Assembly: GCA_025359915.1 (NCBI GenBank)
Contig: JANYDE010000137.1
Location: forward strand, 1-64,000
From: Chamaesiphon sp. 336R_metabinner_41
GTDB lineage: Bacteria; Cyanobacteriota; Cyanobacteriia; Cyanobacteriales; Chamaesiphonaceae
Length of the DNA stretch: 64,000 nucleotides
Direction: 5' to 3'
The first letter of the stretch is position 1. Every line of letters starts with the position of its first letter. A program made the position numbers and the translations under genes. Of the stretch, positions 6,975 to 63,322 are shown piece after piece. The notes under the pieces were generated by a model. The model had not been told where the DNA came from. It did not search any database and worked only from the letters and a program-made list of their open reading frames with translations.

Positions 6975-7006
6975 AGATCTCCGACTGTCCAAGAAGTCGG
7001 GGATCT
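6975..7006. repeat. Family-2 palindrome (CCCCGACTTCT type), in the leader of a radical SAM gene
   Basis: AGATCTCCGACT pairs with AGTCGGGGATCT (one mismatch) over an 8-base loop. The right arm ends 11 bases before the ATG at 7018, where a ribosome binding site should lie, and no Shine-Dalgarno sequence is visible. Other copies are at 18552-18701, 29605-29637, 37056-37088 and 63283-63322. Confidence 0.8.
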
Positions 7007-14320: not shown

Positions 14321-14372
14321 GCGATTACTAGAGTAGGGGCAATTCATGAATTGCCCCTACTCTAGTAATCGC
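14321..14372. repeat. Family-1 palindrome, perfect 26-base arms
   Basis: A perfect 52-base inverted repeat centred on ATTCATGAAT, with core GGGGCAATTCA and its complement and outer arm GCGATTACTAGAGTA. It lies 37 bases after the porin stop and probably acts as a bidirectional terminator. Other copies: 16752, 22357, 45584, 57995 and 62987. Confidence 0.92.
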
Positions 14373-18437: not shown

Positions 18438-18733
18438 TCCTCGTTAGGTGGAATGATCGACGCATATAACTAATTGACTTTAGTTTAATCGGTTTTGTTT
18501 CGATCGGGTCTGATTATTACAGAAGTTTTCAGAAGTCGAAAATGTGGGATTCAGATCTTCGACTTCTTCTCTTCTCTTCTCTTCTCTTCTCTTCTCTTCT
18601 CTTCGAGAGGCTCCGCCAACGAGAGGCTCCGCCAACGAGAGGCTCCGCCAACGAGAGGCTCCGCCAACGAGAGGCTCCGCCAACGAGAAGTCGGGGATCT
18701 GGCATGGCTACAATCAACTTTAAATATTAATTA
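18438..18733. other. Repeat-filled gap between two minus-strand genes
   Basis: Contains no believable gene. The centre (18552-18701) is a hairpin filled with tandem repeats, described separately. Open frames on both strands here are translations of the repeats. Confidence 0.8.
18552..18701. repeat. Family-2 palindrome expanded by (TTCTC)7 and a 16-mer x5
   Basis: The arms CAGATCTTCGACTTCT (18552-18567) and AGAAGTCGGGGATCTG (18686-18701) pair at 14 of 16 positions, as in other family-2 hairpins. Between them lie seven perfect TTCTC pentamers (18567-18601) and five perfect copies of GAGAGGCTCCGCCAAC (18605-18684). The 16-mer contains a small GGC-TCC-GCC stem. Confidence 0.92.
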
Positions 18734-22356: not shown

Positions 22357-22422
22357 GCACCTGATAAAAACCAAGGTAGGGGCAATTCATGAATTGCCCC
22401 TACCTTAGTTTTTGTGAGGTGC
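22357..22422. repeat. Family-1 palindrome with long arms, after map
   Basis: The core GGGGCAATTCA plus complement is extended to 33-base arms (GCACCTGATAAAAACCAAGGT with ACCTTAGTTTTTGTGAGGTGC), with four mismatches. It starts 4 bases after the map stop codon and most likely terminates map and the convergent TPR gene. Confidence 0.88.
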
Positions 22423-37088: not shown

Positions 37089-37120
37089 TGAGATGCTTCC
37101 TTTAGCAGAAATTCCAAATT

Positions 37121-37327
37121 CAAACTCATTTCCACACGCCGTAGGGGCTGGTTTATGCTAGCCAGTATGGATTTGCAACAACAAATATCAACCAAAACCC
37201 GCCCAACCCCGCCAGCAACAATATTCAAACTCATTTCCACACGCCGTAGGGGCTGGTTTGTGCTAGCCAATATGGATTTGCAACAATAAATATCAACCAA
37301 AACCCGCCCAACCCCACCAACAACAAT
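37121..37327. repeat. Two direct copies of a 105-base repeat
   Basis: Unit 1 begins at 37121 and unit 2 at 37226 (CAAACTCATTTCCACACGCC...). They differ by only a few substitutions. Each contains GTAGGGGCTGGTTT and ATATCAACCAAAACCCGCCC, whose ends are partly complementary. Related modules occur at 217-282, 19373, 37392 (inverted) and 48757. Confidence 0.9.
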
Positions 37328-44277: not shown

Positions 44278-45597
44278 ATGAAACTCCTCTGTATCAGCAA
44301 CGGACATGGTGAAGATGCAATCGCCTTACCTGTCTTACAAGAATTGCGCAAACTATCCCCATCCGCAGAAATAGTCACATTGCCGATCGTGGGTGTGGGG
44401 AAGGCGTATAGTAATAATGGTTTCTCGATCGCAGGGAATGTCCAAACGATGCCGTCGGGGGGATTTCTGAATCAAGATAATCGCCAATTGGTGCGGGATT
44501 TGCGCGGGGGATTGGCGGGATTGACGATCGACCAAATTCGGACTGTTCGCAATTGGGCGAAGTCTGGTGGTAAAATTCTGGCGGTGGGTGATATTGTGCC
44601 GTTATTATTTGCCTGGATGAGTGGGGCTGATTATGCTTTTATCGGTACGGCAAAATCGGAGTATTATATTCGGGATAGTCAGGGACAGATTTTACCATCG
44701 CAGCAGGATTCGATCGAGGTAAAAACCGGATCTTATTATTTTCCGTGGGAGCGGTGGTTATTAAGTCGGGATAGATGTCAGGCGGTATTTCCAAGAGATA
44801 AATTAACTACTGAAAATCTGTGCCAATACCAGATTCCGGCTTTCGATTTGGGAAATCCGATGACGGATGGAGTATCGACAGATCCCAATCTACCAATATT
44901 TTATCCATCTAAATCAGCCAAGCAACCCCTCGTTGTCACATTACTTCCTGGCTCGCGTCCGCCAGAAGCTTATGGGAATTGGAAACAAATACTTATCGCT
45001 GTAAATAGCCTGATTCCGGTCTTTAACCAGCGGGAAATCATCTGTTTGGCTGCAATTACCCCGACCTTAGATTTAGATATCTTACAAGGCAATTTGGATG
45101 AATTGGGATGGATGCAAACGATTGCCGTTCGCGAAGCGTCTCGAAGAGAAGGCAGGTTTTCAACCAACGATCCTGCTGCTGAGTTAATTAGTCTCATTCC
45201 CGATGCGAGGGCGATTTATTATCGACGAGATCATTCGACGATCGTGATTAGCACTCAAGCTTATTCACAGTGTATGCGATCGGGGGACTGTGCGATCGCG
45301 ATGGCGGGTACGGCGACGGAACAGTTTATCGGATTGGGTAAACCTGCATTTATCATTCCAGGTGCTGGCCCTCAGTTTACACCAGCTTTTGCCGAAGCTC
45401 AAACTCGACTATTGGGTGAGTCGGTGATTCTAGTACCTCAGGCGCAGGATCTGGGGGTGGAAATGCAGCGATTATTAGCGCAACCCGATAAGTTAAGATC
45501 GATTTATCAGAATGGACTATTACGCATGGGTACGCCTGGTGCTGCGAAACGAATTGCAGCGTGTTTGATGGGAATAATGGGTAGGGGTAATTCATGA
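44278..45597 (+). CDS. Lipid-A-disaccharide synthase-related protein, copy 1
   Basis: Start ATG 44278 (MKLLCISNGHGEDAIALPVLQEL), 439 residues; upstream in-frame residues are repeat. It belongs to the cyanobacterial/plant LpxB-related family (GT-B fold), with SNGHGED, MPSGGF, AVGDIVPLL, TLLPGSRPPEA and the C-terminal AMAGTATEQFIGLGKPAFIIPGAGPQFT. The acceptor and donor sugars are unknown. A low-complexity insert VREASRREG (about 284-292) comes from a dispersed repeat. Its last residues and TGA are formed by a family-1 palindrome. A paralogue is at 47409. Confidence 0.88.
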   Translation: MKLLCISNGHGEDAIALPVLQELRKLSPSAEIVTLPIVGVGKAYSNNGFSIAGNVQTMPSGGFLNQDNRQLVRDLRGGLAGLTIDQIRTVRNWAKSGGKILAVGDIVPLLFAWMSGADYAFIGTAKSEYYIRDSQGQILPSQQDSIEVKTGSYYFPWERWLLSRDRCQAVFPRDKLTTENLCQYQIPAFDLGNPMTDGVSTDPNLPIFYPSKSAKQPLVVTLLPGSRPPEAYGNWKQILIAVNSLIPVFNQREIICLAAITPTLDLDILQGNLDELGWMQTIAVREASRREGRFSTNDPAAELISLIPDARAIYYRRDHSTIVISTQAYSQCMRSGDCAIAMAGTATEQFIGLGKPAFIIPGAGPQFTPAFAEAQTRLLGESVILVPQAQDLGVEMQRLLAQPDKLRSIYQNGLLRMGTPGAAKRIAACLMGIMGRGNS

Positions 45598-45605
45598 ATT
45601 ACCCC
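45584..45605. repeat. Family-1 palindrome forming a gene's stop codon
   Basis: GGGGTAATTCA plus its complement; the C of the family core is T here, with a matching A on the other arm. The TGA stop at 45595-45597 lies exactly at the centre of the palindrome. Confidence 0.88.
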
Positions 45606-45678
45606 ACCAATCCGTTGCGAACAAACCAAAAGCTGATAGCGTCTAATAAGTAAATCATTTAGCGATCGAGTAAGTCTT

Positions 45679-57994: not shown

Positions 57995-58042
57995 AAAACT
58001 GAGAGTAGGGGCAATTCATGAATTGCCCCTACTCTCAGTTTT
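57995..58042. repeat. Family-1 palindrome, perfect 24-base arms
   Basis: AAAACTGAGAGTAGGGGCAA and its complement around the shared centre. It lies after the toxin gene and before the convergent NFACT gene. The outer arm (ACTGAGAGTA) differs from other copies but is complementary to its partner. Confidence 0.92.
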
Positions 58043-60313: not shown

Positions 60314-60371
60314 AGTGGAAATCTCTAGCAGAAACAAAGTCATCTACAGATCCTCCTCCCAATTTCCTCGC

Positions 60372-62948
60372 ATGGTTCAGACAAATCCAAATCAAAGCAT
60401 CATCGCCGAATCAGCTTCAAACACAATCGTTCTGGATATTGCGGGAATGAAATGTGCTGGATGTGTTGGTGCGGTGGAAAAACATCTCCTCGCCGAAACG
60501 GGGGTAAAGTCTGCATCTGTTAATTTGTTGACTGGGGTAGCGGCGATTTCGGTAGAGCGGGAGACAGTTACAGCCGATGCTCTCGCTACGAAATTGACGA
60601 CAAAAGGATTTCCGACTCAACCCCGAATCGTAGCACTGAATGAGAATCGATCGCACCAACGAAAGACTAAATACGCCCAAGCATCTAAACAAATTCTGTC
60701 GCAATTAGTCACTGCTGGTATTTTGTTAGGATTATCCGCTGTCGGACATTTTACTCAACCAGATAATACCCACATGCATCATGGGTATTCAGTATTAAAT
60801 AACTTTTGGTGGCATTGGGGTTTAGCGACACTAGCTATTATATTTCCAGGTAGAGCGATGCTCGTTGATGGTTGGCGAAGTCTGTGGTTTGGCAATCCGA
60901 ATATGAATACCCTGGTGGGTTTGGGAACGATTGCTTCTTATACAGCCAGCGTCGTTGCGCTACTATTGCCGAATTTAGGCTGGGAATGCTTTTTTGAAGA
61001 ACCCGTGATGATTATCGGGTTTATCACATTGGGGCGCACCCTCGAACAACAGGCGAAACATCGAGCGGCGAATGCATTTGACCGACTATTATCACTCCAG
61101 CCGACAATAGCACGGTTAGTTAGTCCAGATCCAGAGCGTCCCCAAGCGATCGAAATTCCGGTCGAACAGGTTAAAGTGGGTGAATATTTGCGGGTACTCC
61201 CAGGCGAAAAAATTCCGACTGATGGCGCGATTCGGTGGGGAGAGACGACGATTGATGAATCCTTGATTACGGGTGAATCGATTCCGGTGCTGAAGCAGTT
61301 GGGGGATGGGGTAATTGCAGGTACCGTGAATCAATCGGGGGCGATATCGATCGAAGTTACCCGCACGGGGGATGATACTACTCTGGCACGAATTATCGCC
61401 CTGGTGGAATCAGCCCAAACTCGCAAGGCTCCAGTCCAAAAATTCGCCGATACCGTCGCCGGATATTTTACCTATGGCGTAATTGCGATCGCAATTCTAA
61501 CATTTCTGTTCTGGTATTTGATCGGCACCCATAACCCCAATTTAGATCCGCCGATTTCCAGTTTAACGCCGCTCAAAGCTGCGATTGCGGTAATGGTGGT
61601 TGCTTGCCCCTGTGCATTGGGTTTAGCCACGCCTACGGCGATTCTCGTGGGGACAGGGATTGGCGCAGAATCAGGGTTATTGATCAAGGGTGGCGACGTA
61701 CTGGAAACGGTGCATCGATTGGATACGGTGGTATTCGACAAAACAGGTACTCTAACCGAAGGGAAGCCGCAAGTTACCGATATTATTACGGCTGATGCTT
61801 TTCAAGATCATTCGGTTAGTCAGCGACTAAAGTCGCCGCTAGTGATGCAAAGTCTGCCTACGCAGACTAAGATTGTTAGTTCGACAGAATTACTCCAACT
61901 TGCGGCGGCGGCGGAAAGTGTTACCAATCATCCTCTGGCGGTGGCTATTTGTCAGGAAGCTGCACGATTGGGTTTAACTATTCCAGTGGTGCTCAATTCC
62001 CATACTGAAGCTGGTTTAGGTGTCTATGCAGAGGTTCAAATTACAGGAGATGGGGAGACGCGGGGACTGGGAGACGGGGAGACTGGGATAATTGTGGGGA
62101 ATCAAAACTGGTTAACTGCAAAGGGAATTGATATTAGCGATGAGTGGTTAGATGCGGCTGAAAAGTTGACAGTTGCTGGAAAAACAGTGATGTATGTCGC
62201 GATCGCCGAGAATTTACCATTATTCAGTAAAATCATAGGTATAATTGGTGTGACCGATCGATTGCGAGTAGATGCGATCGAAACTATCACGCAGCTACAG
62301 CGCAAAGGTTTGCAGGTAGTCTTGCTCACAGGTGACAGAAAACCAGTCGCAGATCTCATCGCCCAGAAATTAGGAATTGTCGATATCTACGCCGAAATCT
62401 TACCCCAAGATAAAGCCCGAATAATTCAATCATTACAACAAAATCAGAATAGATCGAGTCAAAAAAGTGAATATTCTCAACATCCCGAAAACAGCGATAC
62501 CTTTCCCCTTTCCCCTTTCCCCTTTCCCCTAGCAACAACACCATCAACGAAGTTACTCAACACCAAAAAAGTAGCCATGATTGGGGATGGAATCAATGAT
62601 GCTCCCGCTCTAGCTCAAGCCGATGTGGGAATTGCGATGAATGCTGGTACTGATGTCGCGATCGAAGTAGCTGATATTATCTTAGTACGCGATCGACTAC
62701 TAGACGTGGTTTACTCGATCGAATTATCCACCAAAACCTTCACCAAGATTCGTCAAAATCTCTTCTGGGCGGCTATTTATAACATCATTGGTATTCCCGC
62801 CGCTGCGGGATTGCTCTACTGGTTTGGTTGGGGTGCAATGCTCAGTCCATCCGCCGCTGGCGCGATGATGGCACTAAGTTCGGTAAGTGTCGTTACTAAT
62901 TCATTATTACTGCGATTGGGCAGAACAAAGAATAAGATAATTGCGTGA
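60372..62948 (+). CDS. Copper-transporting P1B-type ATPase (CtaA/PacS-like)
   Basis: Start ATG 60372 (MVQTNPNQSIIAES), 858 residues; a GTG at 60315 is less likely. The N-terminal heavy-metal domain has GMKCAGC. Transport motif CPCALG, phosphorylation DKTGTLTEG, ESVTNHPLA with the HP dipeptide, and GDGINDAPAL are all present, which fits Cu(I). In cyanobacteria CtaA and PacS deliver copper to plastocyanin. The protein carries three low-complexity inserts absent from typical family members (61823-61873, 62044-62098, 62440-62565), all coded by repeats. They lie in loops of the actuator-distal P/N domains. Confidence 0.92.
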   Translation: MVQTNPNQSIIAESASNTIVLDIAGMKCAGCVGAVEKHLLAETGVKSASVNLLTGVAAISVERETVTADALATKLTTKGFPTQPRIVALNENRSHQRKTKYAQASKQILSQLVTAGILLGLSAVGHFTQPDNTHMHHGYSVLNNFWWHWGLATLAIIFPGRAMLVDGWRSLWFGNPNMNTLVGLGTIASYTASVVALLLPNLGWECFFEEPVMIIGFITLGRTLEQQAKHRAANAFDRLLSLQPTIARLVSPDPERPQAIEIPVEQVKVGEYLRVLPGEKIPTDGAIRWGETTIDESLITGESIPVLKQLGDGVIAGTVNQSGAISIEVTRTGDDTTLARIIALVESAQTRKAPVQKFADTVAGYFTYGVIAIAILTFLFWYLIGTHNPNLDPPISSLTPLKAAIAVMVVACPCALGLATPTAILVGTGIGAESGLLIKGGDVLETVHRLDTVVFDKTGTLTEGKPQVTDIITADAFQDHSVSQRLKSPLVMQSLPTQTKIVSSTELLQLAAAAESVTNHPLAVAICQEAARLGLTIPVVLNSHTEAGLGVYAEVQITGDGETRGLGDGETGIIVGNQNWLTAKGIDISDEWLDAAEKLTVAGKTVMYVAIAENLPLFSKIIGIIGVTDRLRVDAIETITQLQRKGLQVVLLTGDRKPVADLIAQKLGIVDIYAEILPQDKARIIQSLQQNQNRSSQKSEYSQHPENSDTFPLSPFPFPLATTPSTKLLNTKKVAMIGDGINDAPALAQADVGIAMNAGTDVAIEVADIILVRDRLLDVVYSIELSTKTFTKIRQNLFWAAIYNIIGIPAAAGLLYWFGWGAMLSPSAAGAMMALSSVSVVTNSLLLRLGRTKNKIIA

Positions 62949-62977
62949 GGATCGTTAATTAAATATATTGGTGGGTT

Positions 62978-63274
62978 TTAGCGATTTCGTGGTAGGGGCA
63001 ATTCATGAATTGCCCCTACCACGAGATAGCTAGCCAACTGTTGATAAATAACATCGCCAACGGCTGCTTTCAGAGATTTACCTAGCCTGTTTTTTTTCTG
63101 TGCTAGTTGGAGACAGTCAGCGTTTGGACATAGATAAACCGAACGTCCTTGAATGAATTTATCGCCAAGATCGATCGTGACTTCTCGTGTAGGATGGCAT
63201 CTTACCACCCGCCAAAACTGACTTCTCAGGGCAACTTTTCGACAACTTACACACCGACGAATATCTTTAGTCAT
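62978..63274 (-). CDS. ylxR: YlxR (RnpM/DUF448) RNA-binding protein with repeat-encoded C-terminus
   Basis: A 98-residue protein with RRCVSCRKVALRSQFWRVVR, GRSVYLCPNADCLQLAQKKNRLGKSLKA, the YlxR core. YlxR proteins bind nucleic acid and modulate RNase P in Bacillus. It lies downstream of nusA, as usual. Residues 84-96 (VVGAIHELPLPR) are translated from a family-1 palindrome. A family-2 hairpin ends 8 bases before the ATG. infB, the usual next gene, is absent; a convergent ATPase gene follows. No Shine-Dalgarno is seen. Confidence 0.9.
   Translation of the reverse strand: MTKDIRRCVSCRKVALRSQFWRVVRCHPTREVTIDLGDKFIQGRSVYLCPNADCLQLAQKKNRLGKSLKAAVGDVIYQQLASYLVVGAIHELPLPRNR
62987..63024. repeat. 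Family-1 palindrome inside the ylxR coding end
   Basis: TCGTGGTAGGGGCAATTCA and its complement, perfect over 19-base arms, extended with mismatches through TTTAGCGAT. It overlaps codons 84-96 of ylxR on the minus strand. Confidence 0.92.
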
Positions 63275-63282
63275 AATCTAAG

Positions 63283-63322
63283 GATAGATCCCCGACTTCT
63301 GGCTAGAAGTCGGGGATCTATC
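63283..63322. repeat. Family-2 palindrome between nusA and ylxR
   Basis: The perfect 18-base stem GATAGATCCCCGACTTCT/AGAAGTCGGGGATCTATC with a GGCT loop. It ends 8 bases upstream of the ylxR start and within the nusA-ylxR transcript. It could terminate, process or repress translation. Confidence 0.9.

Follow-up and report, generated by a model that had tools for sequence, protein, structure and literature searches.

A double-foot REP palindrome read in frame at the C-terminus of YlxR in a Chamaesiphon genome

Results

The ylxR locus and its palindrome

The window, i.e. the whole stretch of 64,000 nt from Chamaesiphon sp. 336R_metabinner_41 that was analysed, contains a ylxR gene whose frame runs from 63274 down to 62978 over 98 codons and which converges with a heavy-metal P-type ATPase gene (Table 1). 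Both the match to PF04296 and the position beside nusA, with NusA KH domains encoded upstream, place the product in the YlxR/DUF448 family. The usual neighbour of nusA-ylxR is infB; here (60315-63274) it is the convergent ATPase, not infB, that follows ylxR. Scanning a collection of genome contigs with YlxR returned three distant relatives only, and a PDB sequence search with the protein gave no true match, just weak ones to designed barrels.

Table 1. Features of the ylxR 3' end and other copies of the same palindrome in the window
Feature	Position	Strand	Remarks
ylxR (DUF448)	62978..63274	minus	98 aa ORF; PF04296 E=2.6e-21, residues 6-81; downstream of nusA
ylxR stop codon TAA	62978..62980	minus	two bases inside the palindrome, one outside
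Far outer hairpin arm	62979..62991		encodes RNR and first two bases of ylxR stop; arms 93% complementary
28-nt perfect-palindrome core GTAGGGGCAATTCATGAATTGCCCCTAC	62992..63019		GTAG double-foot REP; encodes VGAIHELPL in ylxR frame; same core upstream of RAYT genes
Near outer hairpin arm	63020..63032		within ylxR ASYLV codons; from arm pairing and RNA fold
Heavy-metal P-type ATPase	60315..62948	plus	PF00122, PF00702, PF00403; convergent, 3' end faces ylxR across palindrome
Same REP core, other copy	14332..14361		arms perfectly complementary, 26 nt each
Same REP core, other copy	22375..22404		from repeat and copy comparison
Same REP, variant core GGGGTAATTCATGAATTACCCC	45580..45609		from repeat and copy comparison
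Same REP core, other copy	58004..58033		from repeat and copy comparison

The 98-aa minus-strand ORF ends in VVGAIHELPLPRNR, the terminal stretch of the gene being IYQQLASYLVVGAIHELPLPRNR, and this end is read from a palindrome, GGTAGGGGCAATTCATGAATTGCCCCTACC, at 62991-63020; the window has six such related copies in all. The earlier note had described an in-frame palindrome here, and both the palindrome and its peptide are real; the codons it numbered 84-96 correspond to residues 85-96 (VVGAIHELPLPR), followed by RNR and the stop, and the translation it assigned to the minus strand is identical from either strand. Being self-complementary, the palindrome has the same frames on both strands (GRGNS*, VGAIHELPL and *GQFM), two of which hit a stop, leaving VGAIHELPLP as the sole open frame of GGTAGGGGCAATTCATGAATTGCCCCTACC. 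The palindrome supplies the last dozen amino acids of YlxR and most of its stop codon, of which the T and the first A lie in the far arm and the final A beyond the palindrome.

The full hairpin is longer than previously noted, with 93% complementary arms of 27 nt each (62979-63005 and 63006-63032), and its RNA is predicted to fold with -38 to -40 kcal/mol, at a z-score of about -9 to -10 relative to shuffled sequences. A standard intrinsic terminator was rejected, as no T-run follows the palindrome on either strand. Rfam gave just sub-threshold chance matches to hairpin models, and a literature search for the peptide GAIHELP found no paper.

Another perfect hairpin, TAGATCCCCGACTTCT GGCT AGAAGTCGGGGATCTA, is found at 63285-63320, 10 nt before the start of ylxR, and could affect the ribosome site of the gene; it belongs to a different repeated family, with further copies at 6992 and 18686. 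Elsewhere in the window, 16-nt units are arranged head-to-tail at 18604-18704 (CGAGAGGCTCCGCCAA), and a 105-nt tandem duplication with 95% identity spans 37118-37327.

The palindrome-derived tail is peculiar to this genome

YlxR is present in 145 of the 147 genomes of the order. The palindrome peptide was absent from all 28 relatives with readable tails, same-genus proteins included; no palindrome-free homologue among them carries the same C-terminal residues, supporting the view that these residues derive from the repeat. The notion that YlxR normally ends near IYQQL does not hold in general: past the IY..L position the 28 tails extend by a median of 16.5 residues (range 4-58), and same-genus proteins, which end in IYQQLVSLNLTKIKE, IYQALSFRI, IYQALGFRL, IYQQLESIAID, IYQQLGLLK and IYQQLQLLITSRSELTD, extend by 4-12, compared with 18 here. 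The peptide is thus peculiar to this genome and the tail length is ordinary.

That the insertion removed the native stop and so extended the protein, as the earlier note held, seems likely, with the qualification that no unfilled ylxR site could be aligned at the nucleotide level among relatives; as the peptide is absent from them and tail lengths vary, the ancestral stop cannot be placed. In three same-genus relatives (L010, L011 and L013) the ylxR stop falls at the beginning of heptanucleotide tandem arrays or next to them, a hairpin with a T-run is found at the ylxR 3' end in L009, and in G004 a different hairpin comes right after the stop, suggesting that the ylxR 3' end collects repeats.

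Copy number, spread and position

Genome-wide, 68 places match the 22-nt core with at most three mismatches and none matches the reversed control pattern, so the palindrome occurs far beyond chance. Allowing up to two mismatches to the 26-mer, we counted 54 copies in this genome, 7-51 in each of eight other genomes of the genus and 0 in two genomes of a sister genus. The exact 26-mer has a patchy spread, occurring in 41 of the 390 genomes of the class with a maximum of 84 copies (G242).

Most copies in this genome are intergenic. Hand-counting from ORF-based calls placed 26 of 52 copies in convergent, 22 in co-directional and 1 in divergent positions (49 classified, 3 unclassified). Measured against the intergenic space of the window, copies are strongly enriched in convergent and depleted in divergent gaps, and they concentrate after the 3' ends of genes. 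The same bias has been published for GTAG REPs, which are also reported inside ORFs, some of them at coding ends, and as suppliers of stop codons (PMC3733652). In G242 we also observed a MITE (L085-L119) with ends TTAGGACTTACGCAAAA, in which many copies, symmetric and asymmetric, have the same REP core near the centre.

A GTAG/CTAC double-foot REP and an associated RAYT

We assign the palindrome to the GTAG/CTAC double-foot REPs, a kind that is served in cyanobacteria by TnpA-REP (RAYT) subclass 2.4 (RAYT group 4). It has GTAG at the 5' foot and CTAC at the 3' foot of a long stem (core GTAGGGGCAATTCATGAATTGCCCCTAC), it is dispersed in 54-68 mostly extragenic copies, depending on the threshold, and it accompanies RAYT genes: L243 (G003) and L256/L258 (G000) each have two cores upstream, spaced alike in both genomes. 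Among the Y1_Tnp genes of the family we found an intact 176-aa RAYT in G003 (L243) and, in this genome (G000, contig C155), its 90% identical ortholog, which is broken by an internal TGA; at the other 29 Y1_Tnp loci fetched there was no core closer than about 1.5 kb. In G000 there is a further RAYT-like gene (contig C15, L257), with a core some 700 nt upstream (region L038) and another ORF in between. Both proteins match NCBIfam REP_Tyr_transpos below its curated cut-off (E=1.5e-18; score 67.1, cut-off 80), and L243 contains NHFH, LWQRNYYE (WQ) and YIINNP, which fit the NH[IFV]H, WQ, YIxNNP pattern tabulated for subclass 2.4 (PMC6006769). This subclass goes with GTAG and CTAC double-foot REPs, which are abundant in cyanobacteria and also insert in frame into tnpA-REP (PMC6006769).

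Across the class, RAYT relatives were found in 100 of 390 genomes (E<=1e-15), and 14 of the 30 best related loci have GTAG...CTAC palindromes of 28-33 nt, with centres of their own, beside the gene or in frame within it, the RAYT of G379 containing VEIIHELSLP in this way. At the same threshold, RAYTs are present in 24 of the 41 core-bearing and 76 of the 349 other genomes, an odds ratio of 5.1 that is uncorrected for kinship, and are absent from G242, with its 84 copies, and from G256 and G393. Loss of the RAYT with REPs remaining is reported for known REPs (PMC6006769). Since the G000 gene is broken, G242 has no RAYT of this family at that threshold and kinship is uncorrected, the RAYT is a mover that we infer from association. 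Between G000 and G003, the unit of the RAYT with its two REPs is 91% identical (L256 370-1227, L243 1463-2319) and lies in different gene surroundings; homology breaks off within the outer palindrome, as would be expected had the unit moved.

In-frame insertions in other proteins

Comparison of predicted proteins indicates that the REP enters coding sequences in frame elsewhere as well. In a response regulator of this genome, G000, with Response_reg and Trans_reg_C domains and a sub-threshold Hpt, the peptide VGTIHELPLP occupies the linker that follows Trans_reg_C. The corresponding proteins of G007 and G008 (85-88% identical) have no insert, amounting to a net in-frame difference of 45 nt, and in G004 this linker contains half a core. 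The second case is an ArgRS-like protein (Arg_tRNA_synt_N, DALR_1) of another cyanobacterial genus: four species have VGAIHELPLH, a fifth has VGAIHELLLH, and at least four other species have a different linker. Four further in-frame ORFs (L046, L059, L075 and L078), all short, were left out of the count of proteins; the Pfam scan covered L046 and L078 and matched neither. The response-regulator and ArgRS-like cases, the former with true empty sites, demonstrate in-frame entry of the REP into proteins, aided by a single open frame that reads alike both ways. The ylxR case is weaker than these two because its empty state is unseen.

Most copies are nested in copy-specific outer arms

Beyond the constant 28 nt, flanks of different copies share a mean identity of only 34%, and yet within a copy they pair with each other: positions 15-27 are paired across the centre in 70.3% of cases, compared with 34.3% (sd 2.0) when partners are shuffled. 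This complementarity reaches about 27 nt from the centre, and in a minority of copies pairing ends at the core. Of the 18 two-mismatch copies listed for G001, 12 have changes that mirror each other, falling into six kinds; the chance of this would be about 5e-19 if copies were independent, a figure inflated because copies of one common type share descent. In the genus of G242, orthologous sites differ by symmetric stem changes (L098/L140, L111/L127/L153 and L115/L144), and at one site (L099, L122 and L123) the same outer arms enclose different cores.

Discussion

We consider it probable that a mobile, RAYT-linked REP entered the gap between ylxR and the ATPase gene, was read through, left YlxR with a tolerated tail and later came to lie between complementary arms. 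The element would have been moved, probably by a RAYT working on single-stranded DNA as in the IS200/IS605 family, and inserted between the convergent genes at or before a presumed older ylxR stop. Translation would then have continued through VGAIHELPLP, the core being open in one frame on either strand, until the edge of the far arm provided a stop. The complementarity of the outer arms most likely came later, when template switching at the perfect palindrome copied one flank onto the other.

The compensatory arm changes and core swaps at orthologous sites suggest either such arm copying or insertion into existing hairpins. We favour the first, i.e. that one arm is copied onto the other by template switching in the manner described for quasipalindromes (PMC8794818, PMC7202029), the second being a serious rival; both may act. 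Tentatively, and with less than even confidence, we propose that a mobile perfect palindrome may act as a seed for the rewriting of its flanks: once it is in place, replication template switching would copy one neighbouring sequence onto the other as an inverted repeat, and each copy would grow a private hairpin. If so, the ylxR stop and the last residues would have been made from an inverted copy of the preceding codons of the gene, or the reverse.

The rival explanation, which we regard as possible if somewhat doubtful, is that the element inserts into the loops of hairpins already standing at gene 3' ends, so that both arms would be older than the core and the ylxR hairpin would have pre-existed. 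It would account for the L099 site, where G242 and G174 have the core and G119 and G236 have homologous arms around GTAGGGCGCGAAGCGCCCTAC and GTGGGGCGCAATGCACCCCAC, and it agrees with REPs inside larger palindromes in Anabaena variabilis and T. roseum (PMC3733652) and with the different hairpin behind ylxR in G004. It sits less well with the MITE copies, of which L102, L093 and L119 have asymmetric flanks, L101 is fully symmetric and made from one side, and L103 has one side rewritten. Nor does it readily explain the site shared by L106 and L130, where just one arm is conserved and the core of the relative has decayed, or the inner palindrome of the RAYT unit, whose outer arms in G000 and G003 are distinguished by a mirrored double change. 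The copy-specific arms provide a large body of natural data for asking whether a palindrome grows through template switching or selects a hairpin that is already there.

A further reading is that the hairpin itself, as RNA or DNA, is retained for a job at 3' ends, such as stabilising mRNAs, ending transcripts or marking the boundary between convergent genes, the overlap with ylxR being incidental. We think this unlikely. The strong convergent and downstream bias, the very stable fold and the compensatory changes between orthologs would all fit; however, avoidance of promoters would yield the same bias, the lack of a U-run after the stem does not suit a standard intrinsic terminator, and copy number varies widely among species.

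True domestication, with the added tail selected for a role such as RNA or protein binding, we regard as very improbable: the reading frame stays open across the palindrome and past its end, and an analogous ArgRS-like insert is kept in five species, but the YlxR tail is found in just one genome and lies beyond the Pfam domain, which ends at residue 81, the tails of the family are conserved neither in sequence nor in length, and peptide conservation is no evidence of selection on the protein because the core, as a palindromic repeat, stays uniform in any case. The tail, whose translation is predicted, is most likely a tolerated, neutral C-terminal addition without a function. The earlier note spotted the feature correctly and over-interpreted it as domesticated.

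Our analysis links a common cyanobacterial palindrome to a RAYT family. Like the double-foot REPs of TnpA-REP subclass 2.4 / RAYT group 4 (PMC6006769), it has a GTAG foot at one end and the reverse-complementary CTAC foot at the other, a long stem, a RAYT nearby, cyanobacterial abundance and frame-keeping insertions; it differs in lying at the C-terminus of YlxR and in the complementary outer arms, specific to each copy, that enclose most copies. We found no description of such arms in the literature searched. GTAG REPs in general (PMC3733652) share the 3'-end and convergent bias, insertions in ORFs, some of them at coding ends, termini that supply stops and, in some cases, a place within larger palindromes, but those palindromes have a shared consensus per species, whereas the outer arms here vary from copy to copy. 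Rickettsia palindromic elements (cited in PMC3733652) are similar in being read as a peptide inside or at the end of proteins; they differ in sequence and host, and no dedicated transposase is known for the CGTC elements among them. Quasipalindrome template-switch mutation (PMC8794818, PMC7202029) predicts an arm copied onto an arm and multi-base compensatory changes, as seen here, where the process would be seeded by a mobile element and we infer it from sequence comparison. Within REP biology, the end of ylxR is a clear example of a known and ordinary phenomenon, raised somewhat by its copy-specific concentric arms.
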